Both the position numbers and the translations under genes were made by a program. The notes below the pieces were generated by a model. It saw nothing but the letters and a program-made list of their open reading frames with translations, had not been told where the DNA came from and did no database searches. Positions 1 through 63,706 of a stretch of DNA of 64,000 nt are shown one piece after another (the stretch's first letter is position 1; each line of letters begins with the position of its first letter). The stretch is from Tridacna crocea (Eukaryota > Mollusca > Bivalvia > Cardiida > Cardiidae): positions 60,810,962 to 60,874,961 of the forward strand of contig OX031062.1 in NCBI GenBank assembly GCA_943736015.1, written 5' to 3'.

Positions 1-59
1 TCTCTGAAGGCTTTTTTCTCAGGGTCGTGAAAACCTGGGATTGTTAGGAAAAGGGTTAA
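1..59 (+). mobile_element. TTAA-MITE-1, right end, cut by window edge
   Basis: Only the last 59 bases of a copy, ending AAAAGGGTTAA. Confidence 0.8.
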
Positions 60-481
60 ACTCTTTATCAAATGACAAAATTACAGACTGATCTAAATGA
101 AAGGCATTTGCAGATGACAAAAAAAAACATAACTAAAACATGAAATTTGTTTTGGAAAGACAAGAAATCATTGTGGCAAAAAAAGAAAATGCTGGTTACC
201 AGCATTTTCTCCTCCTCTCACAATGATTTCAAAATATTTCTTTCCCAGGTTGTTAAAAGTCCAAGCATTGTGTGTAAAATTACCAAATGACAAAATTTTT
301 GACCTGTCAAAATTGAAACCATTTGCAGATGACCAGATTAATTTTACTCAAAAATTGGAATTTGTTCTGGGAGGGTGAAAAACATTGTGAGAAAAGGAAT
401 TGGTTACCAGCATTTTCTCCTTTTCCCTTTTCAAGAGGCATCTTTTTCAGAGTCATGAAAACCAGGGATTGTTTGGGTTAA
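56..481 (+). mobile_element. TTAA-MITE-1 fused tandem pair
   Basis: Two copies in the same orientation are joined near 279 without an intervening TTAA: the right end of the first runs straight into ACCAAATGAC of the second. Both keep the central hairpin (second degraded). Confidence 0.8.
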
Positions 482-705
482 CCCTTTCCCAAAAAAGCCC
501 TGGTTTTTACGTGTCTGCAGTAAAAGTCTTTTGAAAACACTGTGGGAAAAGGAGAAATTGCTCATAAAGAGCAATTTCTCCTTTTCCCACATTGTTTTCT
601 TCCCTTTTTGAGAATTTTCTGCCATTTTCTCCAAATCTAAAATTGTCGCCTGCAAACTCTTTCGGTTTGGAAGGGTCCAAAATTTGTCATTTGGGAAAGG
701 GTTAA
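478..705 (-). mobile_element. TTAA-MITE-1, subfamily C
   Basis: Ends are TTAACCCTTTCCCAAA and TTTGGGAAAGGGTTAA. The hairpin tip reads GAAATTGCTC with AAGAGCAATTTC opposite. It shares its left TTAA with the preceding copy. Confidence 0.88.
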
Positions 706-1562
706 AGATTGTGAGGGATGGTGAAAATGCTGGCAAACCTTTCAGAAAGAAATCTCAGATTTGGCTCATGATAATTTGGACTAGTCAAACAATGTCATTT
801 GGTAATGAGTAAAACTAGAAAGTTCAACACTGTCTTTCCTGTTCGGACAAAATGTGAAACTTTCCTTTATCTCCACCTTGTAAACTTTTTACCAGCCATA
901 AATGTCCAAGACTTGTAGCATCATTGAACTATAGCTCACTAGTACAGATGTCCGTCCCCAAAGGAGATCTTACTTTTTGACTGGTTGCCTCTGGGTACAG
1001 AGACGATCAAGACAAAACCAGTTGAAAGTTCCGCACAGATTTTGTGCACAATTTTGAACTCTTATGATTTTTTTAGAGCACAAAACTAGGATTTAAACAT
1101 ACCTGTTGCTTGTGTATTTCATAATCTGTTGTTTGAAATGCAAATATTTTCAATTTAAATGCTAAAGATGAGAGAAAACCATGCATTTCATCTGTTACTT
1201 GGGTTATTTACATTCCCGAAAACACTCAAAATGGCTGCCACACACGATAAATTTCATCAGTGTTTTTTCGGAGATTTACATGTTAAAAACTACTTCTACA
1301 AGCTTTTTAGGTAATGAAGGGTTCAATAATTTGTCTTTGGTCATGTTAGTTACTTGAATTTAATTGCATTTCACTGCAATACAGATTAAACTGACAAAAC
1401 AGAAAGGCAGTATAGTGCTTTAATTTTGCAATTGGAAAATTTACAATAGACATGGCGACAGTACGGTGCACAAAAAAATGTCCAAATATGAAAAAAAAAA
1501 ATCACCTTAACATCTCATTATTGAGACTATACAGCTCACATGACTGAATTTTCCAGTAATAG

Positions 1563-1632
1563 GTATGAAAACATTGTAGGGAAAAGCTGGTTACAAGCAT
1601 TTTCTCCTCGTCCAACATTGTTTTCAAATTAA
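1563..1632 (+). mobile_element. TTAA-MITE-1 hairpin fragment
   Basis: Only the hairpin and a few flanking bases remain, abutting the TTAA of the next copy. Confidence 0.6.
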
Positions 1633-1856
1633 CCCATTACCACACAATCCCTACTTTTGATACCCCTGAGAAAGAAGCCTTTAGAAAACATTGTAGGAAA
1701 AGGAGAAAATGCTGGTAACCAGCATTTTCTCCTTTTCCCACAATGTTTTCTACCCTTTGCAAAACAAATTTCAGTTTGCAGTCACTTTTATTTTGTCGTC
1801 TGCAAATGCTTTCATTTTGGACAAATCTAAAATATTGTCATGTGGTAAAGAGTTAA
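1629..1856 (-). mobile_element. TTAA-MITE-1, complete
   Basis: TTAA at both ends. The hairpin around 1700-1750 is nearly perfect. Confidence 0.92.
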
Positions 1857-1877
1857 AACATTCTTCCTATGAAGTCA

Positions 1878-2081
1878 TTAACTCATTACCAAAATGAAAG
1901 CATTTGCAGATGACAACATATAAGTGATTAAAAATCTGAAATTTGTCTTGTGTAGAATAGAAAATAATATGGGAAAAGGAGAAAATGCTGGTTACCAGCA
2001 TTTTCTCCTTTTCCCACAATGTTTTCAAAAGGCTTCTTTCACAGCGTCGTAAAAACCAAGGACTGTATGGTAAAGGGTTAA
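1878..2081 (+). mobile_element. TTAA-MITE-1, short left arm
   Basis: TTAA at both ends, but about 25 bp of the left arm (the TTTTAGACTGG region) is missing. A further 27-bp end fragment follows. Confidence 0.88.
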
Positions 2082-2216
2082 GACAATGGATGTTTGGTAA
2101 AGGGTTCATTGCTTCTTTGCAGCATTGCCATATAAGGAAACACTATTGAGTAAGTTACTGTATAATCAAACTTGACTTTTCATGTCCATGAAGTTGTCTG
2201 ATTTATTGTATGGTGT

Positions 2217-2446
2217 TTAACTCATTACCAAATGACAATAATTTGGGCTTGTCCAAATTGAAAGCATTTGCAGACAACAAAATAAAAGTGACTGAAAATT
2301 TGGAATTTGTCTTGTGAAGGGTAGAAAACAATGTGGGAAAAAGGAGAAAATGCTGGTTACCAGCATTTTCTCCTTTTCCCACAATGTTTTCTTAAGGCTT
2401 CTTTCTCAGGGTCATCAAAAGTAGGGATTGTGTGGTAATGGGTTAA
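2217..2446 (+). mobile_element. TTAA-MITE-1, complete
   Basis: TTAACTCATTACC to GGTAATGGGTTAA with an intact hairpin. Confidence 0.92.
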
Positions 2447-2462
2447 AGCCACTTTTGAACAT

Positions 2463-3228: not shown

Positions 3229-3457
3229 TTAACCCATTACCAAACAACAATATTTTAGACTGGTCCAAATTGATAGCATTTGCAGGCAACAAAATAAAAG
3301 TGACTGGAAATTTCAAATTTGTTTTGTGGAGGGTAGAAAACATTGTGGGAAAAGGAGAAAATGCTGGTCACCAGCATTTTCTCCTTTTCCCACAATGTTT
3401 TCTACAGGCTTCTTTCTCAGGGTCGTTAAAAGTCGTGATTGTGTGGTAAAGAGTTAA
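3229..3457 (+). mobile_element. TTAA-MITE-1, complete
   Basis: Hairpin tip GGTCACC instead of GGTTACC: a change at the unpaired centre of the loop. Confidence 0.92.
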
Positions 3458-4113: not shown

Positions 4114-5280
4114 GAGTTTCATGATTAATATTTTTTTAAAAGTTTGAAGGTGTCTGAGTATACCCTCCATCATGTATGAAAACTCCAGACGTGTCAGAAA
4201 AATAATTCCACACGTTCACATTTAAGCTAGTTAATATTACATATATTTTAAGCATGCTAACGTCAAGTTTCCAAAATAAACGACAGGATACAGTAGGGTT
4301 TTCTAAATTTTCTAAGTTAAAACTGTTTTGAGCCTAATTAATTAAACAAATCCTTACCTGTCTGAATATACCCAACAATGCACTATAGCAAAAAAAAGTA
4401 TTGGACTGGTACTGTGGCATCTAGGACATATTGGGTATTTCATAAGTTTGACCCAGTAACCTAATTTTCGACCCTTCATGACCAGTTTTCAAAGTTATTC
4501 CAGATATCAACAAGACAAACAATCTGACAAACTTTCAAGAGTATACGACTGATGATGTGGCCTATACAGTGTTTTTCGAAGATTTGACTTACTGACCTAG
4601 TTCTCGATTCCACATGACCATTTTAAAACTAGTCCAAGATATCAAAACAAGTATTCTGACCAAGTTTCATCTTTCAAAGGGTAAAAAATCTGAGAAAGAG
4701 ATAATGCTGATCAACGTAACTTTCTATTTTTCTCACAATGCTTTCAGAAAGGAATTTCCTGATGACAGGGTCCAAAAAATTCACTTGTCCGCTCGTCCTT
4801 ACTAGTAAAAATCTGGTGAGGGCAAGTGGATTATCCTTCTTTGTCTAACTGTAGAACAAGTGCAAAATGTCAGGAGGACAAGAAAGAATTCTAAAATTTT
4901 TTGGACCCTGCATGAACAAAACTTAATGTTTTGTTTAAAATGGAAGCATTTCTAGATGACTTATTAATGTGTTTTAATCCTATAGCAAACCATCCTGTTT
5001 TCTAGATCCAATGATGGAAGAGGTTCTTTGAAATCACAATGGCAGAAGTAGTAAATACTAATATTCACCCTTTACCCATAACAGGGTATGCAATCCTAAC
5101 TAGAAAGGATTGCATACTCTATTATTGGTAAAGGGTTTCTGTAAAAGAGCTGCATCCTATCTTATGAACATGAAATTTCGCTACAAATGCATAGCTGAAA
5201 TAGAAACCACATCTGGCGGGATTTGAACGCATTTGCAGACGACAATTAAAAAACTAGAGGGCCTGTATCACTCTACTGGC
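4114..5280. other. Intron with MITE relics
   Basis: No gene. Weak relics of TTAA-MITE-1 arms can be read at about 4690-4775 (CTCACAATGCTTTC) and 5225-5253 (GCATTTGCAGACGACAA). Confidence 0.4.
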
Positions 5281-7892: not shown

Positions 7893-8120
7893 TTAACTCT
7901 TTACCATGCAATCCCAACTTTTAACGACCCTGAGAAAGAAGCCTTTTGAAAACATGGTAGGAAAAGGAGAAAATGCTGGTAACCAGCATTTTCTCCTTTT
8001 CCCACAATGTTTTCTACCCTTCCCAAAACAAGTTCAATTTTTGAGCCATATCTATTTTGTCGTCTGCAATTGCTTTCTATTTGGACAAGTCTAAAAATTT
8101 GTTTTTTGGTACAGAGTTAA
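7893..8120 (-). mobile_element. TTAA-MITE-1, complete
   Basis: Its right TTAA (8117-8120) is also the left TTAA of the next copy, which lies in the opposite orientation. Confidence 0.92.
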
Positions 8121-8332
8121 CTCGTTACCAAATTACATTATTTCAGGCTAGTCCAAATCGAAAGCATTTGCAGACGACAAAATAAAAGTGACTGAAAATT
8201 TGAAATTTGTTTTGTGAAAGGTAGAAAACATTGTGGGAAAAGGTAACCAGCATTTTCTCCTTTCCAACAATTTTTTCTAAAGGCTTCTTTCCCAGGGTCA
8301 TCAAAAGTAGGGATTTTGTGGTAATGGGTTAA
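8117..8332 (+). mobile_element. TTAA-MITE-1, hairpin arm shortened
   Basis: The left hairpin arm has lost GAGAAAATGCTGG, so the stem is asymmetric. Confidence 0.9.
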
Positions 8333-8698: not shown

Positions 8699-11600
8699 CT
8701 AAAATAAACATTATTTTATTATTTACTGTACAATCCCAAGTTTTAATGACCCCCCTCTTCAAAAAGATCAAGTTCTATTGACTCCACCCCCCCCCCCAAA
8801 AAAAAAGGACCTATGAAAATAGTGTCAGAAAAAGACAAAATGCTTATGAAAAGGATTTTCTCTTTCATCCAAGATGTCTTCTATAATTTGAAAGCCAAAT
8901 TTCATAATTTCACCCACACTTGATTTGTTGTAAGCAGATGCTTCAAATTTGGACCAGAATAAAGTTTTCTTGTTTGGCACAGACTTAAACACAGTATCTC
9001 ATGCAGATGACTTACTTCATCTTGCAGCCCACCAAGTTCTGAAATATTGAGACAAATGGATAAATTGCTCATAAAGAGGAGTTTCTCCTTTGGCCTCATC
9101 TTTTCACATATTTCCATAATATTTAAAACATTACCAAACGACAAACTTTTAAGTTTGTCCAAATTGAAAGCATTTGTAGGCAACAAAACAAAAGTGACTG
9201 AAAATTTGAAATTTGTTTTGTGAAGCGTAAAAAACATTGTGGTAAAAGGAGAAAACGCTGGTTACCAGCATTTTCTCCTTTTCCTGCAATGTTTTCTAAA
9301 GGCTTCTTTCTTAGGGTCGTCAAAAGTAGGGACTGTGTGGTAATGGGTTAACCTTAAATGAAAATGTTCATCCAAATTTCACAAGCCCCTGAAAAAGAAG
9401 ACTTACAGCTACTGTGCATGACGGATGATGGAGCCACTACGTGTATAATGGCTACCCTTGAGCATGTCAAGCTAAGGTGAGCAAAAAACATTGTCACAAC
9501 TGAAGAAATAACTCATTTTTGAAACACACAAGAATGCTATCAAAGGCTTGATGTATCAGAGAGGGCTTCATTAACTCTTTACCATATGACAATATTTTAG
9601 ACTGGTCCAAATTCAAAGCTTTTGCAGATGACAAATGAATTGTGGCTTAAATAATTCATTTCATTTCTGATGGAATAGAAAACTTTGTGGGAAAAGGAGA
9701 AAATGCTGGTTATCATTTTCTTCTTTGCCCACAATGTTTTCAAAAACCTTTTCTTTTAGGGTCGTCAAAAGTCGCGTCTGTGTGGTAGAGTTAACCTTTA
9801 CCCCATAAGGCATTTCTATGGTATCTCTAACTGACCCTAAATAACAGCAAGGATGAAGCCGTTTCATATGTGTATATGACACCTTTTGATAGTGTAGAAA
9901 ACATTGTGGCAAAAGGTGAAATTGCTCGTCACCAGCAATTTCACCTCTTGCCACAATGTTTTCTGAAGGCTCCTACAAGCGATGCGTAGAAATGAGTATC
10001 TATGGAGTAAAGGGTTAAATGTTTGCATGAAGGAAAGAGCAACCAAAGAAAAATGTGGATGCTGAGGGCTATAAAAACATACTGTCTGCCATATAACTGT
10101 GACTAACTGTTGGGTGTAATAAGTAAACCTTGTTTTCTTCCAACCTTTTACCAAAATATCCCTTGTTTCAACAATCCTGAGGAAGATAGACATTAAAAAA
10201 CACTGTGAGATTTTCTCCTTTCCCCACAATGTCTTCTACCCTATAATTGACAAATCCCATCATTTCAGCCACTTTAACCCATTACCACACAATCCCTACT
10301 TTTGACGCCCCTGAGAAAGAAGCCTTTTGAAAACACTGTAGGAAAAGGAGAAAATGCTGGTAACCAGCATTTTCTCCTTTTTCCCACAGCGTTTTCTACC
10401 CTTCCCAGAACAAATTTCAATTTTTCAGTCACCTTTATTTTGTCGTCTGCAAATGCTTTCAATTTGAACCACTCCAAAATTTTGTTGTGTGGTAAAGGGT
10501 TAATTATTTTGTTGCTTGTGTAATGCTTTCTTTAGGCCCAAGGAGTAAAAAATTTTGAGTTTCGTTGTTTGGTAAAGGGTAAAAATGGTTTGTCCCTAAA
10601 TAGTTTTGTTGAGACAAACACAGACCTTATTTTATCATTTATTCCATATTTTACATGAAACTAACCTGATACTTCAAGTAAACAATTTGAGCTCTTTAGA
10701 AACAAACATTTTTTGACTGTTGACCTCTTATTTGATGGCCGTTTTGCAAAGAAAGAGGAAAAAGAAGCAATATGACAAAACATGGACACCAATTTCAAAC
10801 CAAATCTACATCTTACATATGAACTTTATATAGAACAGTCTACCAAAATATACCCCACTTCTGACAGCCTCTCCAAAGACTGCCTTTAACCCTTTACCAC
10901 AAAATGATGACTTTTATCATCTCTCAAAGAGAAGGCTTTTGAAAGCATTGTGGGAAAAGGATAAAATGCTGGTAACCAGCATTTTCTCCTTTTCCCACAA
11001 TGTTTTTATTCCCTTTCAAAGAAAATTCATTTCATATGAGCCACAATAAAACTGTCATCAGCAAAATGCTTTCAATTCAGACAGGTCTAAAATCTTGTCA
11101 AGTGGTAAAAGGTTAAAAGCAATGAGGGAACAGAAGTATTTGCTTGCTACAAGTGATTGCATCTTTCTCCTACCTCAATTTCTCTATCATTGAAAATTCT
11201 TTTCTTTGAACAAGATGTGAGCAGCATTCTGGGAAAAGGTGGCTTAATGCAGCTCTGTGATGCAACAAAACTGTTTTCAAACTAGTCCAGTCAGAATCAT
11301 TGGTTGCTATCCTTGGAAAGATTTCGTCCAAGCTGAGAATTGAACTTGTGACCCCCTGTATTATAAGCTCTGAACTTTACCCACCTCTTTTCCAGGCTCA
11401 GCAGCCAGAAAGTTTGGTATTTTATCTGTTATCTGTTAATTTTTACTGTTGAATCCCCTCAACCCTTTCCCAAACAAAAATTTTTAGACTCTTCCAATTC
11501 TAAAGACTTTGCAGACGCAAATTTTAGATTTGGAGAAAATGGCAGAAAGTTCTCAAAAAGGGTAGAAAACACTGTGGGAAAAGGAGAAATTGCATGCTAA

Positions 11601-46011: not shown

Positions 46012-46140
46012 AAAAAGAAAAAAAAAATGAAATCTTTGAAAATCTTCTTCTCTGAAACTATAAGGCGTAGAGCTTTGATATTTGGTATGTAGTATCTCCT
46101 AATGGACCTCTATCAAGTTTGTTCAAATCATGCCCCTAGG

Positions 46141-47470: not shown

Positions 47471-47580
47471 CCACTGGGGCAATCTTGATGAAACTTGGCA
47501 GGGATGTTCCTTGGGTGAAGCTTTACCAAAGTTGCTCAAAGAATTGAATTTCAATCGTAAGCTATAGTGTAAGGTGAGCG

Positions 47581-50771: not shown

Positions 50772-50876
50772 ATTGCTGATTTCTGTGACATCTAAGAATA
50801 AACAAAATGGCTGATTCACCAACTCGATCAAATGCAGAATCTCCCAATGCTTCAGTGGCTTCTGGAAAGAAATCAA
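50772..50876 (+). CDS. CFAP100: CFAP100 exon with start codon (residues 1-23)
   Basis: The acceptor TTCATTTTAG ends at 50771. The first 35 nt are untranslated, with an in-frame TGA at 50786-50788, and the ATG at 50807 sits in AACAAAATGG. It encodes MADSPTRSNAESPNASVA and more, a Ser/Ala-rich disordered leader, and ends in phase 1 at a GTAAGA donor. Because it opens with an acceptor, at least one non-coding exon must lie upstream. It was not located. Confidence 0.85.
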
Positions 50877-53800
50877 GTAAGAAGATTTTTTCCTTTCTGT
50901 TTCCTAAACTCTTTACCAAACAACAATATTTTAAGCTTATCCAAATTGAAAGCATTTGCATATGACAAAATGAAAGTGACTGTAAATTTGAAATTTGTTT
51001 TGTAAGGAGTAGGAAGCATTGTGGGAAAAGGAGAAAATGCTGGTTACCAGCATTCTTTCTCCTTTTCCCTAAATGTTTTCTAAAGGCTTCTTTCTTAGGG
51101 TCGTCAAAAGTAGGGATTGTGTGGTAATGGGTTAACTGGTTTCAATTAATACTTCTATAAATTTTCAAAAGGTCAAAGGTGCCACCCTAATGTACTTCAT
51201 CTGTATTGACAAAATCTATATAATATTTACAGAGATTAGGTGAAGGTTTTTGTTTCCCTGTCATTGTGAAGTTGCCTCTCCTGATGGCAAAATCATTTTT
51301 ACTTCCTGCTATATGCATCCAGAATCAATATCATCTGATAGGATACAATGTGTTGGTTATAAAACAACCCGGTGTTTTAACATTCCTGTGACAGAAGCCT
51401 TTTCAAAATGTTATAGGAAAATACTGGTACCCAGCATTTTTCCCTTATGTCACAATGTTTTCTATTCTGTAAGAGAATCTCTCAACATTTGTATCATTCT
51501 CAATTTTTTGGTTAGCATGTACTATCAACTCTGAGTAGTCTGAAATTTGTCATTAGGGAATGGGTATAATGGGGATAAGTTAACAAGCAATAACAAGAAC
51601 TCATAACCTTCTGTAACAAATTTAAACTAAACATATCAAAGACATGTATGAAAGATATGGGTTATCAACGTAAATGAGGATTGACACGCTAAAGTATGTG
51701 AAAACCTAATGGTAGAAGCGAAGGTGAAATGGCTTATTAGAAGAGCTTACCCCTTTTATATCAATGGCTTCAAAATTAATCAGCTGCACAACAAGGGAAG
51801 CTGTATGTGGGATGTGGTTAGGTGGTAAAGAGAAAGCCTTTTATTTTGCTTTTTATAATTTGATCACAAAATGCTAAGCCTTTTACCAAACAAAAAAATT
51901 ATGGACTGGTCCAAATTGAAAGCATTTGCAGACGACAAAATAAATGTGACTGAAAAACTGAAATTAGTTTTGGGAAGGGTAGAAAACATTGTGGGAAAAG
52001 GAGAAAATGCTGGCTACCAGCATTTTCTCCTTTTCTCACAATGTTTTCAAAAGGCGTTTTTCTCATGGTCGTTAAAAGTCGGGATTGTGTGGTAGAGAGT
52101 TAAATACGGTACATCATGTTACAAGCCAAACCTTCACCATTAAACCACTTTTCACTACCGTAATGTTTTGATGGCCAGTATAGATCTCTATCAGGCTGCA
52201 TAAAACACAGAATGAAAATGCCTGTTTGGTTTATTTGACACTCAAAGAGTTAATTTTAGATTTACTAAACTCGTTACCAAATGACAAAATTTTAGATTGG
52301 TCCAAATGGAAAGCATTTGCAGATGAAAAATTAAATTTTGTTAAAATGCTGATTTCTTTTTTTCAATGGGTAGAAAACATTGTGGGAAAAGGAGAAAATG
52401 CTGGTTGCCCCAATGTTTTTTTCCCACAATGTTTTCAAAAGGCCTCTTTCCCAGGGTTGTTAAAAGTCGGGATTGTGTGGTAAAGAGTTAAATAATGAAG
52501 TTTCTTTGAGTTGTAATTCTGTGTACTTCATACCTACCTCTCTAAATACCATCAATATGTCATCTTTATTTATTTCATTTTTGCATTGATTGGATTATTG
52601 GCAGTATCACAACTTTTGTCTAGGGCAAGAGAACCAGTCCAGAGCTTCAGGCAGATCAGGAAGAGTTACATTCCCTAACTCAGCAAAATCAGACTCTGAG
52701 CACTCTCTTCTGTCAGGTAAACATAATTGTAAAGGTTATAGTCTGTTTACATATATCTGAACATTCTGGAAAAGAAAAATTGCATAAAGATAAGTTACAA
52801 ATCATCCTTGTAAAGTATTGATGATCAATATGCACCAGTTGGTGTTTAAGCCTTTACCAAACAATCCCTGGTTTTTACGTCCCTGAGATAGAAGCCTTTT
52901 GAAAACATTGCGGGAAAAGGAGAGAATGCTGGTAACCAGCATTTTCTCCTTTTCCCACAATGTGTTCTACTCTGATTGAAAATTTTTTCGATTTCTGAGT
53001 TACGTTTATTTTCTGTCTGCAAGTGCTTTCAATTTGGACCAGTATAAAATTTTGTCAATTGGTAAAGGGTTAAAACATAAAAATCCATGTAAAATTGTTA
53101 TGAAACATGTGCTGTAAGGTTTCAAAAATAAGTTGTCATAACCTGATATAATAGTTAGCATTTTGAACTGTTCACTGTCCTGGCTGTTGTGAAAAATACC
53201 AACAAGACACTATACAGATAGGAGATGACTTATTTAGCAAAGTAGAGCAAAATATACCAAACATACCTTTAACTGATCACCGAACGACAAAATAATAGAC
53301 TGGTCCAAACTGAAAGCATTTGCAGACAACAAAATGAATGTGACTCAACAATTAAAGTGCCTTTTGGGAGGGGTAGAAAACATTGTAGGAAATTGAGAAA
53401 ATGCTGGTTACCAGCATTTTCTCCATTTCCCACAATGTTTTCAAAAGCCTTCTTTCTCAGGGTCATTGAAAGTCGGGATTGTGTGGTAAAGAGTTAAGAG
53501 AATGATAAGTCTTTGCTTATTGACTAACAAACTTTCAAAAGCTGTCAGCTGCAGAGAAATTAATCAATATACCTCTATAGTTATGATTCAATTTCATACT
53601 TCCCGAAAGAAAGTAAGTGTCAGTTTAACCCATTACCAAACGACAATATTTTAGACTGGTCCAAATTGAAAGCATTTGCAGAAGTTTTGTGAAGGGTAGA
53701 AAATATTGTGGGAAAAGGAGAAAATGCTGGTTACCCGCATTTTCTCCTTTACCCACAATGTTTTCTAAAGGCTTCTTTCTTAGGGGCGTCAAAAGTAGGG

Positions 53801-56800
53801 ATTGTGTGGTAATGAATTAAGCATAATAAATGATCAAACGATGAACAATCCAGTGGGCTGGAGTTGGGTGGGATGGGATTGGATGGAATGGTTCAACAAA
53901 ATAAAAAGAAGGGTTGTGCATGCTATATGCTGAATAACTGTCATACATAGCGATAATATTTAATACATATTGTAAAAGATATAAATGTTGGAACATAAAG
54001 GATGTTCAAAACTTTTTTCCCTAGATGATATGAGCCAAGGACAGAATCCTTTTAAGATGCCCCCTGATAGTGATATCTTTCTGATGAGAGATAAAGAGCG
54101 ACAAAGAAAAAAACAGGTAAAAAGATTTTTTAGGCCATTTTCACCAGTTACTTTGAATTTGATTCTCATTTTGAATTTTGACATCAGTCATGTGGCTTGT
54201 TTTGAAATTTAGAACTAGATCTGACAGTAGAATAGTGGTGAATATATTCCTGGAATGAAATTTTTCCACACTTCTGTAGTATTTAACCCGTTACCTGATA
54301 TGCCAATTTGTGGCTCTTCCATTTCAGCAGCAAATAAAGATATGATGTCAAAAATATGGACAAATGAGGATACAAATATCTCATTGGAAAACATTGTAGG
54401 AAAAGGAGAAATTGCTCGTTTTGAGCAACTTTTCCTTTTCCCACAATGTTTTCAAAAGCTGTCTGTTGTTGATACGTCAAAATGAGTATCTATGGAGTAA
54501 AGGGTTAAAGATACCTCATCAGTCTGCTATTATTGTAAAATTTTGTGAACATAAGAATGTTCATCTCTTAATATCTGAACATTCCTGGATTTTCAATCAG
54601 ATCGAAATCTGTATTTTTTGTTATAAACATGTACCGGTAAAATCTATTGATTTTGAAGTAAAACTGATTTTCCATATTTTTGTATTAATCTTAGCACTAT
54701 TTATGTCAGAGGTTGAAAGAATCATAGATACCATCTTATGAGAAATTAGGCTGGAGGGGAAAGACCAGAAGGAAACAAAGAATAACCCATTACCACACAA
54801 TTCCGACTTTTGACGACCCTGCGAAAGAAGCCTACAGAAAACATTGTGAGAATAGGAGAAAATGCTGGTAACCAGCATTTTCTCCTTTTCCCACAATGTT
54901 TCCTACTCTTCACAAAACAAATTTCAAATTTCAGTCACTTTTATTATTTTTTGTCTGCAAATGCTATTAATTTGGACAAACCTAAAATTTTGTTGTTTGG
55001 TAAAGAGATAACATTTTTTCAATGATATTGAAAACATTGTTGGACAAGAAGCCATTCCCAAAAATGAAGCATTTCATGTTTACCATCATCTTTGCAGGAG
55101 AGACTGCGTCAGAGAGACCTCAAAGTCCATGAAAAGACCACATATGCTTCAAAAGTGAATTTTAAAACTGCAAAGATGATAAAACCGACAGACTCAGATG
55201 AAGAGAAAGAAGATGAAGACACAGATAAAGCAGTTGCAGTTAAAGATGATCCACAGTTCACTATAGCTGTAACAAGAGGTGAACTTTCAGATTTTTTAGT
55301 TGCTGAGTTTCTTACCACATACATGTACATGTCAGAGCTACAGACAGTGGAAGTACAGACAAACCTGTCACTTTTATTGATCAATGAGGGTCCATATTCA
55401 ATAACCATTCTTAAGAACATTCTTTGTCTAATTTTCAAAATTTTGTCCATGTTAAAGTAACATAACTTTTGATTGGCTAAACCATTTGGTTTAGCCAATC
55501 AGAGCTTCTGTTACTTTCACAGTCAGAAAATCTTGAAGAATAAGACAGAGAATGTTCTTAAGAATGGATGGTGAATACGGACACAGATTTTCTTTACCCT
55601 CTACTACATGGCAAAGTTTTATATTCGTCCATATTGAAGAAATTCTCAGAGAATAAGTCAAATGTTTTTTCCTAAAGGATGGTATTTATCCTTTAACACT
55701 TTATCACACAATCCCGACTTTTAACGACTCTGAGAAAGAAGGCTTTAGAAAACATTGTAGGAAAAGGAGAAAATGCTGGTAACCAGCATTTTCTCCTTTT
55801 CCCACAATGATTTCTACCCTTCCTAAAACAAATTTCAATGTTTTAACCACATTTATTTTGTCGTCTGCAAGTGCTTTTAGTTTGGGCAAGTCTAAAATTT
55901 TGTCGTTTGGTAAAGAGTTAATTGGTAGAAACATTGTAGGAAAAGGAGAAAATGCTGGTTACCAGCATTTTCTCCTTTTCCCAAAATATTTTCAAAAACC
56001 TTCTTTCTCAGGATCATTAAAACACAGGATTGTGTAGTAAAGAGTTAAGAGGCCAATCTTTCATTTCCTTCATGTGAAAAATAGGAAGTTAACCTATAGC
56101 AAACATTGGTCCAGAGCTTGCATGTTTCATTTATCCTGCATCTGATCACCCAATATAGGTTTGACTATGTACAAGATTATAAAATGCAATGCACAAAGCT
56201 TTTCTAAATCATACGCTGAGGGAACAATGCTTTTAAGAATCCAGAGATCAGTTTTAACCCATTACCACACAATACCTACTTTTGATGCCCCCGAGAAAGA
56301 AGCCTTTAGTCTAGAAAACATGTGGGAAAAGGAGAAAATGCTGGTAACCAGCATTTTCTCCTTTTCCAACAATGTTTTCTACCTTTTACAAAACAAATTT
56401 CAAATTTTCAGCCACTTTTATTTTGTCTTCTGCAAATGCTTTCGATTTGGACAAACCTAAAATTTTGTAGTTTGGTAATGAGATAAGAGAAAAAAAATAT
56501 TGGTTTCCAGAATTAGATGAAGTGTTACCTTTCACCCATCAACTTTACTGAAAACCATTTCAAGGAAACTGTTGTGATATGTCACAGAAGCACTGTTCAG
56601 GTGCTTTGCCAAAGTTTTCCTGTATTTGATTTTGAATGATAATTTTGACAGATACAATTATCTTATGCAATTTTTTTTATAACAAATATAAAGCCATTAA
56701 GACTTACTGACCATTACCAGTCATCTATCTGATTTCTTCTTAAATGAAAGGGGGAAAAAACTTGTGGATCAGAATCAAGCCCTAGCTCTTTACTACACAA

Positions 56801-59800
56801 TTCCGACTTTTAACAACCCTCAGAATGAAGCTTTCTGAAAACATTGTGGGAAAAGGAGAGAATGCTGATAACCCTTCCCAAAACAAATTTCAAAGTCTCA
56901 TGTCACTTTTATTTTGTTGTCTTCAAATGCTTCAATTTAGACCAGTCTAAAATTTTGTTGTTTGGTAAAGAGTTAATTTCCTTTGAAGCTCATTCTCTTC
57001 AATTAATTGACCTTGAACTTTTTTCTTTTTTACAGATCGTCATGTAGAGAAAGAATCTCTTGCAGAATATATTGCAAAGAAAAGAGAAATGTTTTTAGTA
57101 CAGGTACTAAGATTTCTTTCTTTCTCCAACCATCTCTCATTTTCACTTTCCCTGGTTATTTGTCTTTCACCTGACAAGAAAACGATAAACCCTTTGGCAA
57201 ACAAAGTCAAAATCCGAGGACCTTGAAGAACAAGGCTTTTAAAAACTGAGTGGGAAATGCAGATGTTGCTGTTATCTAGCATTTTATCCTTTAACACAAT
57301 TTTTCTAGTCTTACAAAGATAAGTTCTATCATTTGACCTAAATTTCATTTGTTCCCTGCAAATGTTTGTTATGGAATAGGCAATTAGAACAATACTGGTA
57401 TAAGAATGATAGTGAAAATATAGCATCTGGGTCGGTATTCACCAACCATTCTTAATAATATACTTAGTCTTATATTCTCCAAGGTTTTCTAAATTTGTAA
57501 GTGACACAACTTTTGATTGTATAAATCGAATGGTTTAGCCAATCAGAAGTTGTGTTACTTACAAATGTAGAATATTCTGGAGACTAAGACAGAGAACATT
57601 CTTACGAATGGTAAAAAAATACGGACCCAAATGTGTTTTTCCCTTCTCAAACAGTACTCATTAGGAGTAAAAAGAGATGAAACCCAGAAGTTAGAAGAAA
57701 TAGCACAAGCGGAAGAAAGAAAACTAGAACTTGCTGAACAGTATTTAGAGGAGGATGCGGCCATGTTCGATGAATTCCTCAAAGAAAATGATTCAAATTC
57801 TGCTGAAGCAATGAGAATGTAAGTTGTTCTTTTTCAAAAAGTAAGTTGCTTTTTGTATAAGAATGCTTTTGAACCCATTTTGACAAATAGAGATGGTCGA
57901 TTGTTGGTTTATCTATGCTGTAGTTATACTTACGTAACTGGGGTCTTCTAATCATAGTTAGCTGTGTGATTGGGGAAGTTAACTTGTTACCAAATGACAA
58001 AGTTTTAGACTGGTCAAAATCGAAAGCATTTGCAGACGACAAAATGGAAGTGATAAAAAATTTGTATTGGACTAGGTAGAAAAATTGTGGGAAAAGGAGA
58101 AAATGCTCGTTACCAGCATTTTCTCCTTTTCCCTCAATGTTTTCAAAAGGCTTCTTTGATAGGGTCATTAAAAGTTGCAATTGTGTGGTAAAGGGTTAAA
58201 GCTTTTCATGCCAAAGAAAAAAAGGAAAAAGTGCAGCAGATTTGTCGGATATGGAAAATCAAATTGAGGGAGCGTTTGTTACATGAATACATATAAAAAC
58301 ATTTTCAAAAAGAGTAATTGCTTATCAGATGTTCATTAGAAAGCATAAAAGGTAAAGTAACAGATTACAGGATAGTACAAAGTTGATGATAAATGTGCAT
58401 ATTAATTTGTAATTTAACAGTTTGTTGTATTATGTATCTGCCAGTGGCTTGGAAAGAAAATTGTGCGAAGTACTGGTAAAAGAGGCTCCAGGAAAGCAAG
58501 GATATGTGTACTGGCCCAAGCGATATAACTGAAATAATGTTGAAACAGCATTAACCCAGTACCAAATAAAGAAGTGATAAACAAGTCCGAATTGAAAGCA
58601 TTTGAAGACAAAAAAATGAATGTGACTCAGAAATCAAAAGTTGTACTGGAAAGAATACAAAACATAGTAGAACAAGAGCGGCAAATTGTCGCAAGATACG
58701 CCCGTCTTACCCCAAGTTGTAAAGGTGGGGCATGCACCGGACAAAATTCAAGTATGAAAAACAACAAAGGGCAATAACTCAAAAATAAAGTAAGCAAGAG
58801 TTGTGATTCCTGTGCACTGCACTCCCCATGGATGAGATCTATCCACCCATGAAATTTCATAACCCTAGCTACTATAGTTTTGGAGATATGCTCCGTACAA
58901 AAATTAAGTATGAAAAACGACAAGGGGGCAATAACTCAAAAATTAAGCAAGCAAGAGTTATGATTCTTATGCACTGCACACACCCTCGGTAAGATCTATC
59001 CAGCCATGAAATTTCATAACCCTAGCTAGTATAGTTTTGGAGATATGCTCCGGACATAATTCAAGTATGAAAAACAACAATGGGCAATAACTCAAAAATT
59101 CAGCAAGCAAGAGTTATGATTCCTGTGCACTGCACTCCCCGTCAATGAGATCTATCCACCCATAAAATTTCATAACCCTAGCTAGTATAGTTTTGGAGAT
59201 ATGCTCCGGACAAAATTCAAGTATGAAAAACGACAAAGGGCAATAACTCAAAAATTAAGCAAGCAAGAGTTATGATTCCTGTGCACTGCACTCCCCCTCG
59301 GTGAGATCTATCCACCCATGAAATTTCATAACCCTAGCTACTATAGTTTTGGAGATATGCTCCGGACAAAATTCAAGTATGAAAAACGACAAAGGGCAAT
59401 AACTCAAAAATTAAGCAAGCAAGAGTTATGATTCCTGTGCACTGCACTCCCTGTCAATGAGATCTATCCACCCATGAAATTTCATAACCCTAGCTAGTAT
59501 AGTTTTGGAGATATGCTCCGGACAAAATTCAAGTATGAAAAACAACAAAGGGCAATAACTCAAAAATTAAGCGAGCAAGAGTTATGATTCCTGTGCACTG
59601 CACTCCCCGTCAATGAGATCTATCCACCCATGAAATTTCATAACCCTAGCTAGTATAGTTTTGGAGATATGCTCCGGACAAAATTCAAGTATGAAAAACA
59701 ACAAAGGGCAATAACTCAAAAATTAAGCAAGCACGAGTTATGATTCCTGTGCACTGCACTCCCCCTTGATGAGATCTATCCACCCATGAAATTTCATAAC

Positions 59801-60910
59801 CCTAGCTAGTATAGTTTTGGAGATATGCTCCGGACAAAATTCAAGTATGAAAAACAACAAAGGGCAATAACTCAAAAATTAAGCAAGCAAGAGTTATGAT
59901 TCTTGTGCACTGCACTCCCCCTCGATGAGATGTATCCACCCATGAAATTTCATAACCCTAGCTAGTATAGTTTTGGAGATATGCTCCGGACAAAGAACTG
60001 GACGCCGCCCGGACGCCCGGACGCCCGCCCGCCCGCCACGGGTGATCCCATAATACGTCCCGTCTTCGACGGGCGTATAAAAAGGAGAAAATGCTGGTTA
60101 CCAGTATTTTCTGCTTATCTTACAATGTTTTCAAAAGGCTTCCTTCTCATTAAAAGTCATGATTGTGTGGTAAAGGGTTAAACACCATACAATACAATAC
60201 AACACATTATGTACTATATATTTGTTTTCTGTTTTATTTGTAAGAGCTGAAACTGAGACTAAAGCCAAGTTGGAAAAAGTAGCTGAAATCAAGAAAATCA
60301 ATGCACACATGATGACAATCAAGTCAGAAATATCGAAATATGAAGATACTCTTAAAGAATACCAGTTGTACAGACAGTTTTTGGAAAATCTCACACCAGC
60401 TGTAAGTAAACCTAGACCCTCTTGGCTCTTTACCAATCAATCTTGTGTTTAGCTCTTTACAAAATGACAAAATTTTAGATTGATCCAAATTGAAACCAGT
60501 TGCAGAGGACAAAATAAGCGCAACTCAAAAATTGAAATTTGTTTCCGGTAGGGTAGAAAACATTGTGGGAAAAGGAGAACATGCAATAATTGTTACCAGA
60601 CACCAGTATTTGCCTCATCATACAGTTCAGTTTCTGCAATGCTTAATGATTGATAAATTTTTGAAAAACTCCTGTGTAAATTCCCAAATTTAATTCTGTC
60701 ATCATCCAAAAACAGGAAATCAAAGACGACATGGATTCAAGGAAGAAAAAGAAGCGAGATGAGAGAAGGGCAGAGAGAGCCAAACAAAAAGCAGTTCAGA
60801 GGACCACATCTGACTTGGTGCCCCAAGAAAAAACAGAGACAAAAGGAAAAAGGAAAGGAGCAAAGGGACTGACAGATTTGGCTAAAAAGGGATCCGCTTC
60901 AAAGAGGTAG
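50772..60910 (+). CDS. CFAP100: CFAP100 (CCDC37/MIA1), cilia and flagella associated protein, 8 exons
   Basis: Eight plus-strand exons join in frame to 1020 nt, 339 codons plus stop. CFAP100 is an axonemal coiled-coil protein. In Chlamydomonas it is MIA1, which with MIA2/CFAP73 forms the complex that regulates inner-arm dynein f and beat waveform. Matches recalled from human CFAP100 are NPFKMPPDSDIFLMRDKE, the YASKV segment after a VHEK turn, a YIAKKREMFLVQ block, LEEDAAMFDEFLKEND and the helix ETKAKLEKVAEIKK. The DUF4200-type coiled coil covers about residues 150-275 and a Lys/Arg-rich tail follows. Human CFAP100 is about 610 residues with a second conserved half that is not in the window, so either the gene is shortened here or it splices on past 60906. 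All introns carry MITEs. Confidence 0.93.
50904..51135 (+). mobile_element. TTAA-MITE-1, left end mutated
   Basis: Begins only 27 bp after the donor of the first CFAP100 coding exon. Left CTAAACTC, right TTAA. The hairpin right arm has a CATTCTTTCTCC insertion. Confidence 0.88.
51364..51571 (-). mobile_element. TTAA-MITE-1, decayed
   Basis: ACAGAAGCCTTTTCAAAATG, worn hairpin, GTCATTAGGGAATGGGTATAA. Confidence 0.65.
51874..52103 (+). mobile_element. TTAA-MITE-1, left end mutated
   Basis: Left CTAAGCC, right TTAA. Hairpin complete with tip GGCTACC. Confidence 0.9.
52265..52491 (+). mobile_element. TTAA-MITE-1, tip of hairpin replaced
   Basis: GGTTGCCCCAATGTTTTTTTC replaces the usual inner stem. 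Base of stem kept. Confidence 0.85.
52624..52716 (+). CDS. CFAP100: CFAP100 coding exon 2 (residues 24-54)
   Basis: Exon of 93 nt between TTTTGTCTAG and GTAAAC. With the A carried over it reads RQENQSRASGRSGRVTF and then PNSAKSDSEHSLLS, a low-complexity basic/serine segment. Both junctions are phase 1. It has no strong family signature of its own and is accepted because the phases agree and it is the only open candidate in the interval. Confidence 0.72.
52846..53073 (-). mobile_element. TTAA-MITE-1, complete
   Basis: TTAAGCCTTTACCAAACAAT to GGTAAAGGGTTAA. Starts 129 bp after the CFAP100 exon 52624-52716. Confidence 0.92.
53279..53497 (+). mobile_element. TTAA-MITE-1, complete
   Basis: TTAACTGATCACCGAACGAC to GGTAAAGAGTTAA. 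Hairpin carries TTGAGAAAATG with CATTTTCTCCA. Confidence 0.92.
53625..53820 (+). mobile_element. TTAA-MITE-1, left arm deleted internally
   Basis: About 30 bp missing after GCATTTGCAG. TTAA at both ends. Confidence 0.9.
54025..54116 (+). CDS. CFAP100: CFAP100 coding exon 3 (residues 55-85)
   Basis: Exon of 92 nt after TTTTTTCCCTAG. It encodes DDMSQGQ and then NPFKMPPDSDIFLMRDKE with a basic end. The NPF...D.D.F.LRDxER block is the N-terminal signature of CFAP100. It ends in phase 0 at GTAAAA. Confidence 0.93.
54283..54508 (-). mobile_element. TTAA-MITE-1, B-type right end with C-type hairpin
   Basis: Right end GAGTATCTATGGAGTAAAGG as in B, stem GGAGAAATTGCTCG as in C, left end TTAACCCGTTACCTGATATG unlike either. 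A mosaic. Confidence 0.8.
54782..55012 (-). mobile_element. TTAA-MITE-1, end bases mutated
   Basis: AATAACCCATTACCAC to GGTAAAGAGATAA. Ends 85 bp before the CFAP100 exon at 55098. Confidence 0.88.
55098..55278 (+). CDS. CFAP100: CFAP100 coding exon 4 (residues 86-145)
   Basis: Exon of 181 nt after CATCTTTGCAG. It encodes ERLRQRDLKVHEKTTYASKV, an acidic DSDEEKEDEDTD stretch, and DPQFTIAVTR. The VHxKxTYxSKV motif matches the human protein. The donor is GTGAAC, phase 1. The frame stays open to 55458 if the donor is ignored, but that extension matches nothing and runs into a fold-back element. Confidence 0.92.
55388..55578. mobile_element. GGGTCNGTATTC fold-back MITE, copy 1
   Basis: Near-full palindrome of about 190 bp: GGTCCATATTCAATAACCAT at the left, AATGGATGGTGAATACGGA at the right, centre TTGGCTAAACCATTTGGTTTAGCCAA. 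Confidence 0.78.
55693..55921 (-). mobile_element. TTAA-MITE-1, complete
   Basis: TTAACACTTTATCACACAAT to GGTAAAGAGTTAA. Confidence 0.92.
55922..56048 (+). mobile_element. TTAA-MITE-1, hairpin and right arm only
   Basis: Follows the previous TTAA as TTGGTAGAAACATTGTAGG. Left arm absent. Confidence 0.85.
56254..56486 (-). mobile_element. TTAA-MITE-1, right end mutated
   Basis: Left TTAACCCATTACCAC. A CTAG insertion lies near the hairpin base. Right GATAA. Confidence 0.88.
56487..56782. other. CFAP100 intron, nothing recognised
   Basis: No repeat or exon signal seen. Confidence 0.4.
56783..56986 (-). mobile_element. TTAA-MITE-1, right hairpin arm lost
   Basis: GAGAATGCTGATAACCCTTCC joins the tip directly to the right arm. 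It ends 49 bp before the exon at 57036. Confidence 0.85.
57036..57103 (+). CDS. CFAP100: CFAP100 coding exon 5 (residues 146-168)
   Basis: Exon of 68 nt between TTTTTTACAG and GTACTA, phase 1 in and phase 0 out. It encodes DRHVEKESLAEY and IAKKREMFLVQ, aligning with the YIKQKRQMFLLQ block at the start of the DUF4200 coiled coil. Confidence 0.92.
57184..57372 (-). mobile_element. TTAA-MITE-1, decayed
   Basis: ATAAACCCTTTGGCAAACAA and a worn hairpin and right arm. Confidence 0.55.
57430..57629. mobile_element. GGGTCNGTATTC fold-back MITE, copy 2
   Basis: GGGTCGGTATTCACCAACC at the left and AAATACGGACCC at the right. Inner arms AGTGACACAACTTTTGATTG and CAGAAGTTGTGTTACTTAC. Ends 25 bp before CFAP100 exon 6. 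Confidence 0.8.
57655..57818 (+). CDS. CFAP100: CFAP100 coding exon 6 (residues 169-222)
   Basis: Exon of 164 nt after TTCTCAAACAG. It opens YSLGVKRDETQKLEEIAQ and contains LEEDAAMFDEFLKEND, the most conserved stretch of the protein. Heptad-like spacing indicates coiled coil. It ends phase 2 at a GTAAGT donor. A fold-back element ends about 25 bp before this exon, so the branch site probably lies in or at the edge of transposon sequence. Confidence 0.95.
57979..58199 (+). mobile_element. TTAA-MITE-1, near-complete
   Basis: TTAACTTGTTACCAAATGAC to GGTAAAGGGTTAA. Tip GCTCGTTACCAGC is a mismatch mixture of A and C types. Confidence 0.9.
58420..58554 (+). mobile_element. SINE 3' body, interrupted at its tail
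   Basis: GCCAGTGGCTTGGAAAG to GAAACAGCATTAA. The tail ACACCATACAATACAATAC resumes at 60182, after the MITE. Confidence 0.7.
58551..60181 (+). mobile_element. TTAA-MITE-1 holding a Helitron-like insert
   Basis: TTAACCCAGTACCAAATAAA to GGTAAAGGGTTAA. The left hairpin arm is interrupted at about 58673 and resumes at about 60081 as AAAGGAGAAAATGCTGG. Confidence 0.9.
58674..60080 (+). mobile_element. Helitron-like element with 156-bp satellite, copy 2
   Basis: Same start (AAGAGCGGCAAATTGTCGC) and same end (CCCGTCTTCGACGGGCGTAT) as the element at 18731, with about eight 156-bp units. Because it lies inside a known MITE, its borders can be fixed to within a few bases. Confidence 0.85.
60245..60401 (+). 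CDS. CFAP100: CFAP100 coding exon 7 (residues 223-275)
   Basis: Exon of 157 nt after TTTATTTGTAAG, donor GTAAGT, phase 2 in and phase 0 out. It encodes AETETKAKLEKVAEIKK, the segment MMTIKSEISKYEDTLKEY and RQFLENLTPA. Human CFAP100 has the same ETKAKIEK and IKSEISRFEDTLK blocks. A MITE ends 63 bp before it and another begins 46 bp after it. Confidence 0.95.
60448..60600 (+). mobile_element. TTAA-MITE-1, truncated in the hairpin
   Basis: TTAGCTCTTTACAAAATGAC to GGGAAAAGGAGAACATGC. It begins 46 bp after CFAP100 exon 7. Confidence 0.8.
60716..60910 (+). CDS. CFAP100: CFAP100 coding exon 8, basic tail and possible stop (residues 276-339)
   Basis: It begins after CATCCAAAAACAG with EIKDDMDSRKKKKRDERR and continues Lys/Arg-rich through GKRKGAKGLTDLAKKG to SASKR. 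The frame then meets TAG at 60908-60910. A weak donor GTAGCT overlaps this stop at 60907, so the exon may end at 60906 and splice on. The full-length family has a further conserved half, which favours splicing. Only the exon start and frame are firm. Confidence 0.85.
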   Translation, partial: EIKDDMDSRKKKKRDERRAERAKQKAVQRTTSDLVPQEKTETKGKRKGAKGLTDLAKKGSASKR

Positions 60911-62206: not shown

Positions 62207-62435
62207 TTAATCCATTACCACACAATCCCTACTTTTGATGACCCTAAGAAAAAAGCCTTCAGAAAACATTGTGGGAAAAGGAGAAAATGCTGGTAACCAG
62301 CATTTTCTCCTTTTCCCACAATTTTTTATACCCTTTACAAAATATATTTCAAATTTTCAGTCACTTTTATTGTGTCGTCTGCAAATGCTTTCGTTTTGTG
62401 CAGACCTAAAATTTTGTCGTTTTGTAATGGGTTAA
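62207..62435 (-). mobile_element. TTAA-MITE-1, complete
   Basis: AATTAATTAATCCATTACC to GTAATGGGTTAA. Hairpin intact to the base. Confidence 0.92.
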
Positions 62436-62467
62436 TGCAGAACAGTGATAAGCACCGTTTCCATTTA

Positions 62468-62613
62468 TTGAGAAAAGAGGTTTTTGAAGATATGTTGAAG
62501 GAAGAAGAAAAAGCTGGAAACCAGCATTTTCTGTTTTTTTTTCAAAGTGTTTTCTACATTTGGAACCATTTGAGCGTCATCCAAATTGTCTGCAATTCTT
62601 TTGAATTTGGTTA
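62468..62613 (-). mobile_element. TTAA-MITE-1, decayed
   Basis: Inner hairpin AGCTGGAAACCAGC preserved, arms worn. Confidence 0.6.
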
Positions 62614-62842
62614 ACTCTTTACCAAACTACAAAATTTTAGACTTGTCCAAATTGAAAGCATTACAAGATGACAAATTGAATGTGGCCTAGATGATGGGAT
62701 TCGTCTCCTGAAAGAGTAGAAAACATTGTGGGAAAAGGAGCGAAATGCTGGTTACCAGCATTTTTCTCCTTTTCCCACAATGTTTTCATAAGCCTCCTCC
62801 TCCAATGTCATCAAAAGTCTGGATTGTGTAGTAAAGTTTTAA
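62611..62842 (+). mobile_element. TTAA-MITE-1, complete
   Basis: TTAACTCTTTACCAAACTAC to GTAAAGTTTTAA. Tip GGAGCGAAATGC has one extra base. Confidence 0.92.
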
Positions 62843-62867
62843 CTAAAATTTCATTGCCTGATGTTGA

Positions 62868-62990
62868 CTTACTCCTGTACCACACAATCCTCAGTTATGA
62901 CAACTCTGAGGCTGAAAACCTTCGAAAGCATTGTAGGAAAGGGAGACACTGTTGGTAATTATGATTTTCTTCCATTTGCACCGTGTTTAA
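62868..62990 (-). mobile_element. TTAA-MITE-1, left half, decayed
   Basis: CCTGTACCACACAATCCTCA, then GCATTGTAGGAAAGGGAG. Confidence 0.65.
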
Positions 62991-63113
62991 TAGTGTTTTT
63001 TCAGGACAAAGCTCATAATGACCCATTCATTTGTGTTACCCTTTTAGTGTTACTATGTCAAGTTATGTTGTAATTTGATAAAACATCAATTTTTAAAAAC
63101 CATTTTATGACAG

Positions 63114-63128
63114 AAGGGCAACAAAAAG
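63114..63128 (+). CDS. Candidate 15-nt CFAP100 micro-exon
   Basis: Between ATTTTATGACAG and a strong donor GTAAGTATC lie 15 nt. Joined in phase 2 to the exon ending at 60906 they read R-R-A-T-K and leave phase 2 again. Signal quality and phase fit, but 15 nt cannot be recognised by content, and the polypyrimidine tract is poor. Confidence 0.25.
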
Positions 63129-63642
63129 GTAAGTATCACGGAACCTTTTTCTGAAATAAGCCTTCTAGCTTTCCATACTTTCATTCATATTTATTATTTC
63201 ATTAATAATTGAAAAAATAGCATAAAGATATTTTTTTAAAAATATTCTAGTTTTGAAAAATGCCAAAAGAAGAAATAAAATCTGCAATACAAGAAGAAAC
63301 CATGTTCTTTTTTATATTTGTATTAGACTTTTACAAAACATTGCTATGTTTTTTTTTTAAAACCCTAAGAAAAGTAGGATTTTAAAAAGTTGTAAAAGAA
63401 AACAAATGCTTTTTACAAGTAATATTTCTCCTTTTTGCCGCAATGTTTTCAAAAATGGTCTGTCACATGCCGTAACAACTCTTTTGTAAAAGAAGGTAAT
63501 TGCAGTGCACATGATCCTTTTTTTTCTCTCCTTCATGACACTTGTGATGGGAAAAAATTTATAATGGGAGAAATGCACGGAAGGCGTTGGAAGCACATGC
63601 TCATGTTGACTGATTGATTGACTGAAAGAACAATTTACAAGA

Positions 63643-63706
63643 ATAAACCTTTACCAAACAATCACAACTTTTAATGACCCTCAAGAAAGCATTCAAAACC
63701 TTGTGG
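63643..63706 (-). mobile_element. TTAA-MITE-1, left-arm fragment
   Basis: AAACCTTTACCAAACAATCA, then TTTTAATGACCCTC. Stops at the minisatellite. Confidence 0.65.

Follow-up and report, generated by a model that had tools for sequence, protein, structure and literature searches.

The DNA considered here, a window of 64,000 nucleotides from the bivalve mollusc Tridacna crocea (assembly GCA_943736015.1, contig OX031062.1, positions 60,810,962 to 60,874,961 of the forward strand), is densely occupied by a single family of miniature inverted-repeat transposable elements (MITEs), which carry a long palindrome with an excess of matched changes in its two arms. A first-pass annotation, made from the letters alone, had described about 90 copies and fragments of this TTAA-flanked family. 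The dense family is there, although the number was a little low: a profile hidden Markov model (HMM) of 229 positions, whose source was 88 end-to-end copies (50 of these from the window), finds 111 non-overlapping copies and fragments, 57 on the forward and 54 on the reverse strand, which take up 19,948 bp or 31% of the bases. As many as 66 of them are near full length, covering at least 200 of the 229 model positions. The shared ends are present too, with 103 matches to the MITE end TTAACYCWTTACCA at no more than one mismatch, where 0.22 would be expected from shuffles. Between two dense regions, positions 36520-50900 form a MITE-poor stretch within which no closed open reading frame (ORF) of at least 110 amino acids is listed.

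Anatomy and abundance of the family

Beyond the window, the family is one of very high abundance (all genome counts are those of one assembly). The exact 14-mer end occurs in the 1.05-Gb genome 214,387 times in forward and 214,593 times in reverse orientation, against 24 and 23 occurrences of a backwards control, and both 14-bp ends stand, exact and 213-243 bp apart, at 81,939 places, against none for the control. Extrapolated, these figures give an estimate of about 560,000 copies and about 12% of the genome, which presumes independent decay of the two ends. The same model counts 21, 2 and 9 copies in three further 10-kb stretches, one of them picked as copy-rich and two by round coordinates. 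Short, uniform in length, bounded by inverted ends and present in high copy number, the element shows characters by which MITEs are recognized.

Each copy opens with TTAA and a 14-bp end; some 93 bp lie between this end and the 67-nt palindrome, and some 41 bp between the palindrome and the inverted end on the other side. The palindrome, in model columns 108-174, forms 33 pairs around a 1-nt loop, in good agreement with the stem of about 32 pairs and 1-nt loop first described; the hairpin had also been called central, but it lies off-centre, with 107 nt to its left and 55 nt to its right. As DNA, the copy at 3333-3405 folds with -40.5 kcal/mol, against -6.4 +/- 2.0 for shuffles. The outer TTAA letters are kept at 93-100% in the 88 copies, these having been chosen by their ends, and in five cases two adjoining copies of the window have a single TTAA in common (8117-8120, 12915-12918, 14885-14888, 22464-22467 and 29939-29942), which is expected if a copy takes the TTAA of its neighbour as insertion site. 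Representative copies are given below; the clusters are those made from the flanks in a later section.

1-63708, both strands: span of the MITE family, 111 copies and fragments (nhmmer with the family model)
2217-2446, +: full-length MITE of the main subfamily, both ends exact; orientation reference for the others
3229-3457, +: full-length MITE of the main subfamily, both ends exact, perfect stem
3333-3405, +: perfect palindrome of the MITE at 3229-3457 (33 core pairs and 3 outside)
1629-1856, -: full-length MITE, both ends exact
1878-2081, +: MITE with both ends exact and an internal deletion
478-705, -: full-length MITE, subfamily C (cluster 2)
11461-11685, +: full-length MITE, subfamily C (cluster 2)
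16158-16385, +: full-length MITE, subfamily C (cluster 2), GGAGAAATTGCTCG stem
17564-17784, -: full-length MITE, subfamily C (cluster 2)
9795-10018, +: full-length MITE, subfamily B (cluster 35), GGTGAAATTGCTCG stem
15059-15279, +: full-length MITE, subfamily B (cluster 35)
28233-28457, -: full-length MITE, subfamily B (cluster 35)
26452-26680, +: full-length MITE, CACTG/CAGTG at pair 8, perfect 33-pair stem at 26559-26625
25259-25487, +: full-length MITE, C:G at pair 8
10274-10503, -: full-length MITE, both ends exact, C:G at pair 8
12385-12613, -: full-length MITE, both ends exact; matched G:C to T:A at pair 13, absent from the cluster consensus, in the stem at 12440-12506
31625-31852, +: full-length MITE, matched G:C to T:A at pair 10
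53269-53497, +: full-length MITE, matched A:T to T:A at pair 18
59-274, +: near-full MITE, matched A:T to T:A at pair 5
7893-8120, -: full-length MITE, TTAA 8117-8120 common with the next copy
8117-8332, +: full-length MITE adjoining 7893-8120
22223-22467, -: full-length MITE, TTAA 22464-22467 common with the next copy
22464-22691, +: full-length MITE adjoining 22223-22467
29718-29942, +: full-length MITE, TTAA 29939-29942 common with the next copy
29939-30162, +: full-length MITE adjoining 29718-29942
30862-31090, +: full-length MITE, both ends exact
34710-34938, -: full-length MITE, TTAACCCTTTCCCA-ended type
56254-56486, -: full-length MITE
62207-62435, -: full-length MITE

A copy also folds very strongly as RNA: over its whole length the value is -90.8 kcal/mol, against -48.9 +/- 4.5 for shuffles. 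This could speak for a hairpin kept, independently of transposition, as a precursor of small or silencing RNAs or as a protein binding site, which seems to us quite improbable, as resident copies lose their pairing about as fast as the flanks change (see below), even if a role in source copies could remain, and an Rfam scan of the window gave no family at gathering score. With no tRNA either, a known structural RNA was discarded. Two other imperfect palindromes, of different sequences, lie in the window at 5067-5136 (flanked by ACCCTTTACC/GGTAAAGGGT) and at 57487-57572.

A piggyBac element with the ends of the MITE

Among the 118 matches to PF13843 in the genome, one element of 7.2 kb stands out, compared at three loci (C3, C15 and C5) with differing flanks and 99.6-99.9% identity. 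It bears TTAACTCATTACCA at one end and an inverted copy with 1 mismatch at the other, so that its ends differ from the 14-bp MITE end by 0 and 1 positions. Its ORF of 486 amino acids matches DDE_Tnp_1_7 over the full profile (E 2.6e-88) and, among solved structures, the piggyBat transposase at 5.8e-40, in an alignment that extends through the C-terminal Cys-rich part; the piggyBac transposase was matched as well. By eye, an acidic exon is plausible upstream on the same strand. The element resembles piggyBac and piggyBat (6x67, 9c0f) in its TTAA target, its short inverted ends beginning with C and its DDE_Tnp_1_7 transposase, but it differs from them in its length of 7.2 kb and in the older MITE copies nested inside it.

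The occurrence of the same ends on this piggyBac element, at three loci with differing flanks and near-identical sequence, makes the mobilisation of the MITE by piggyBac well supported as far as sequence can tell, which bears out what the first-pass annotation had proposed from the TTAA and the ends. The 7.2-kb element is also the likely parent in particular. Its resident transposase would move the MITE of about 229 bp through the common 13-14-bp ends.

Kolobok and Sola3 are further superfamilies that use TTAA, and as TTAA alone is not decisive for a superfamily, one of them might move the MITE instead. Against this, the same 14-bp ends bound a piggyBac whose near-identical copies occupy different sites, and we find the idea hardly credible; the one autonomous element of the same ends that was found is piggyBac, transposases of Kolobok, Sola3 or other superfamilies having not been searched for. 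The terminal forms of the MITE follow CYCWTT: CCCTTT begins with the motif CC[C/T]T, quoted behind TTAA for piggyBac in PMC2872659, and CCCATT, CTCATT and CTCTTT differ from it.

The other piggyBac groups with readable ends have a different sequence behind TTAACCC. They were rejected as parents on account of ends unlike those of the MITE in L014-L019 with L023, in L021 with L022, at one end of L030 and at one end of L020/L035, in a comparison that left aside L009-L012, L024, L036 and L038. Two of these groups (L014-L019, L023; L021, L022), readable at both ends, are 2.6-2.8 kb long; their ends are TTAACCCTTTATATAC and TTAACCCTTGTCATGC, and each group has several near-identical copies. Fragments of piggyBac transposase, often interrupted by stops, are clustered at C13:4481437-4612957 and C8:56710862-56757774.

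Paired change in founders and in resident copies

The subfamilies A, B and C with matched changes in both arms, as well as the CATTG/CAATG and CACTG/CAGTG forms, had all been reported by the first-pass annotation, and all of them are present in the window. When 131 near-full copies were clustered by their flanks alone, the main cluster (73 copies) stood at a distance of 0.29 in the flanks and 0.09 in the stem from cluster 2 (8 copies), and of 0.51 and 0.15 from cluster 35 (5 copies). The consensus of cluster 2 departs from the main one at pairs 8, 26 and 31, always on both sides, with 43 of 134 flank sites changed; that of cluster 35, in which 78 of 134 flank sites have changed, departs on both sides at pairs 14, 21, 26 and 31 and, in 3 of its 5 copies, at pair 13 on the left side alone. 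Clusters 9 and 10 have the stem of the main consensus unchanged. As pairs 26 and 31 are common to clusters 2 and 35, this makes 5 distinct two-sided changes against 1 one-sided, where the rare changes within the main cluster are 5 matched against 157 one-sided (Fisher p 1.4e-6). These ratios show that founders retain the fold: in two subfamilies both arms changed together while the flanks diverged freely. The palindrome would thereby aid transposition or another amplification step.

Paired change was also counted without regard to clusters. A sample of 231 copies was used, from which 11 duplicate loci had been removed (L004, L025-L029, L034, L040-L043); the overlapping L003 and L005 were both retained, so that a few copies are doubled. 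It contains 127 matched double changes, where permuting the partners inside each pair type gives 42 +/- 6, and 52 against 31 +/- 4 once the five pairs that mark subfamilies are removed, neither value being reached in 1,000 permutations. For the stems themselves, an alignment of 86 was made (the 88 of exactly 67 nt minus two L005 duplicates, other lengths being left out), and 83 distinct stems show 58 two-sided cells, where 16.4 are expected in shuffles and at most 26 occur in slid controls.

Exact counts over the whole genome, taken on stems otherwise perfect at pairs 18-33 (a context of 33 nt), extend this to single pairs. The change of G:C to A:T is matched in 2,314 and one-sided in 13,290 copies at pair 20, and matched in 655 and one-sided in 9,066 at pair 19. 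Crossed doubles of non-partners, with one arm changed at pair 20 and the other at pair 19, number 233 and 219. If the arms were independent, the product of the matched counts would equal that of the crossed counts, as site rates and copy age cancel; the odds ratio is instead 29.7 (95% confidence interval 24-36). Mutational hot spots shared by paired sites, the arms being identical on opposite strands, are excluded by this control for pairs 19 and 20, at which matched changes exceed independent doubles with site rates and age controlled, as quasipalindrome correction would have it. At pair 22, the change of G:C to T:A is matched in 91 copies (4 of them in one tandem array) and one-sided in 1,603, where about 5 matched would be expected from an effective number of 133,000 perfect stems derived from the crossed doubles. 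Matched changes are thus 4- to 19-fold above independence genome-wide, and the excess of compensatory pairs, set beforehand as the test of the first-pass annotation, is clear.

The stem had also been called the best-kept part of worn copies. Relative to the family consensus it is, with 91.0% identity in the stem, 88.4% in the ends, 77.3% in the left and 78.4% in the right flank; as a statement on the speed of decay, however, it does not hold, and slower decay of the stem after insertion finds no support, the rare changes per site within the main cluster being 3.8% for the stem, 3.9% for the ends, 5.5% for the left and 4.0% for the right flank. Since these rates are close to each other, the high identity of the stem across the family reflects mostly the conservation of founders.

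A matched change in a resident copy may be inherited from a source copy or have arisen where it stands, and the flanks allow both to be compared. For pair 22, 40 of the 91 matched copies were taken in list order, omitting the tandem array on C4, together with 20 of the 1,603 one-sided copies in list order from C1, omitting the close pair 6537940/6538073; all 60 were aligned, and the 37 matched copies whose flanks sufficed for distances (all but 3) were compared, with L005 removed from the family sample. The median pairwise flank distance is 0.36 among matched copies and 0.33 among 40 random copies of the family. Nearest neighbours lie at a median of 0.252 within the 37 matched copies, whereas the mean is 0.237 when the neighbour is sought among 39 random copies, and 291 of 300 random draws were equal to or below the observed value; a matched copy is nearer to another matched copy in just 30% of the comparisons. 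At pair 22 the nearest copy of the sample keeps G:C in 25 cases and is never T:A; in 5 cases it is changed in some other way, and in 7 it is gapped. T:A at this pair is found in none of the 231 copies. For the 7 matched copies at 9-13% divergence, the nearest copy is G:C in all 7. Hidden common descent of the pair-22 copies, which these distances were meant to detect, was therefore not found in the 37, which is indirect evidence that the changes arose in single resident copies. As the matched copies resemble each other no more than they resemble random ones, the comparison points to one arm having repeatedly served as template for the other within individual copies. Four matched pair-22 stems at C4:49998261-49999815, spaced by about 508 bp, belong to the tandem array, which seemingly includes the MITE.

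A second line of evidence comes from a perfect 33-bp palindrome at C1:11657877-11657943, with four matched changes and diverged flanks. Of the 10 genomic occurrences of the 18-mer that holds its three outer changes, two are in this copy and the others are single, at 8 further places; no other place has it in both arms. The triple variant, CATAGCGGTA for CATTGTGGGA, was read in L048-L052 (C1, C2, C3, C5 and C16), 9 of 10 occurrences being on the same genome strand and both arms having it in L048 only.

Inheritance might nonetheless explain everything, through selection on the hairpins of source copies, the scattered matched copies being relics of small or ancient subfamilies with no correction in residence. 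Founder consensuses, in which nearly all changes are two-sided, agree with it, and so do a flank type common to some pair-20 copies and the greater age of the matched pair-22 copies (median flank divergence 0.25, against 0.17 for one-sided ones), which is equally expected if a second event was required. Against it stand the flank distances just described, the presence of pair-22 copies on several flank types, the young ones having G:C in their nearest copy, and the single occurrence of a perfect palindrome with a private signature of four changes. We give this account a small but real share of probability. Ectopic gene conversion between copies, which could have spread rare matched stems, would find donors everywhere in so dense a family. 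The common donor would nevertheless be the consensus stem, and with T:A at pair 22 in about 1 of 1,500 estimated perfect stems such conversion should erase the variant, not spread it; we would be much surprised if it were the cause.

An artefact of assembly was considered as well, in which base calling, polishing or fold-back reads mirrored one arm onto the other. That every count comes from one assembly is in its favour, as is the odd strand distribution of the 18-mer, 9 of whose 10 occurrences share a strand. Nevertheless, the 16 outer pairs of the 40 pair-22 copies hold 85 one-sided and 2 unmatched two-sided changes beside 14 further matched ones (2.3 expected from crossed partners), which argues against any simple mirroring, and an artefact could not produce the pairs at founder level. 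We regard it as very doubtful.

Several observations weigh against arm copying, or restrict it, and against the parentage proposed above. With ten pairs removed from the 231-copy sample the excess is weak (26 matched against 19.2, reached by 50 of 1,000 permutations). The excess relative to one-sided copies is unequal, 14.9% at pair 20, 5.5% at pair 19 and 5.4% at pair 22, and the crossed control covers pairs 19 and 20, not pair 22. The 5 matched among the rare stem changes of the main cluster make correction a minority process. In 3 of the 37 pair-22 copies the nearest sample copy has a one-sided T or A at pair 22, which leaves room for a slight inheritance of this change. Pair-20 matched copies, among the matches listed on C1, are spread over many flank types; a recurrent one, TTTTCCAGGAGCG, is probably due to inheritance. 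Inversion of the loop, expected under some but not all models of template switching, is not raised, with an A loop in 7 of 40 matched copies, 3 of 20 one-sided ones and 25 of 191 of the sample, and is unsupported as a signature of the event. The eight other places of the 18-mer are all on one strand, and of the four read L051 has a normal second arm and L049, L050 and L052 have a truncated one, a pattern without explanation so far. Finally, the 7.2-kb element and the MITE are by eye alike in little beyond their ends.

Taking these observations together, we consider it rather likely that the family is a piggyBac MITE inserted at TTAA, moved most likely by the 7.2-kb element, with a palindrome kept paired both by two-sided change in founders and by copying between arms. 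Two processes would be at work. The lineages that found subfamilies would alter both arms jointly, their flanks being free to diverge; in resident copies, a mutation of one arm would sometimes be copied to the other, giving a new perfect pair. We infer that replication-fork template switching, or another hairpin-templated repair, may be the agent of this copying. Most one-sided changes would stay uncorrected, and the stem would otherwise decay like neutral DNA. The first-pass annotation had offered two causes of paired change, a requirement of transposition and hairpin-based correction, and there is evidence for each, at different levels.

Known systems and further repeats

The CMITEs of the coral Acropora (PMC2872659) are described with TTAA duplications and piggyBac-like ends of 13-14 bp, with an internal region better kept across families than the ends, and with one family that has its ends but little of its interior in common with a resident piggyBac. 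Unlike the present MITE, they are about 100 bp long, are estimated at 1,600 copies in A. millepora, and have no arm covariation reported in the parts of the source consulted; their published 60-bp core consensus has no strong fold (z -0.65, computed here). The criterion for a CMITE is a homologous conserved core of about 75 bp, beside which our family can be set by description and by core fold alone. The combination of ends and hairpin had been called unusual for piggyBac MITEs, but a well-kept internal core is already known in corals, although one whose published consensus lacks a strong fold.

Template switching is an established mutation process that makes and keeps hairpins (PMC8794818). 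As in quasipalindrome and template-switch mutation (PMC8794818, PMC8604942, PMC7202029 and PMC3820800), one arm would here be rewritten from the other, with compensatory changes made in one step. The systems of those studies are, so far as they were consulted, rRNA histories, yeast or E. coli; here, instead, there are many thousands of dispersed copies of a palindrome in an animal genome, and the background of their flanks separates correction from inheritance. In searches of open-access literature we recognised no report of this family or of arm correction in a MITE. New are the palindrome at the core, the scale, and the means of telling correction from inheritance.

Matched changes in a stem are commonly taken as a sign of structural selection, and with this family two of their sources can be distinguished, inheritance from source copies and the rewriting of arms in single copies. 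It comes as a warning that mutation alone can generate covariation, and suggests that a palindromic core can matter for the spread of piggyBac MITEs. The family is a natural test bed for a process of DNA copying rarely caught in the act, and through it one could measure how often hairpin-templated correction happens in an animal germ line, with what spectrum and over what tract length. A broader proposal, on which we are evenly divided, is that these palindromes record arm-to-arm correction in resident animal DNA, affecting roughly at least 5% of mutated pairs with varied base changes, and that the palindrome is a portable amplification module whose fold is kept by matched founder changes as flanks are replaced. 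If so, it is as if correction supplied, and transposition selected, new perfect hairpins.

The window also contains tandem arrays. Two of them, at 18789-20197 and 58732-59994, apparently consist of one 156-bp unit, with 92-94% matches, and a third, at 46022-47410, has 8.4 copies of a 166-bp unit with 79% matches.

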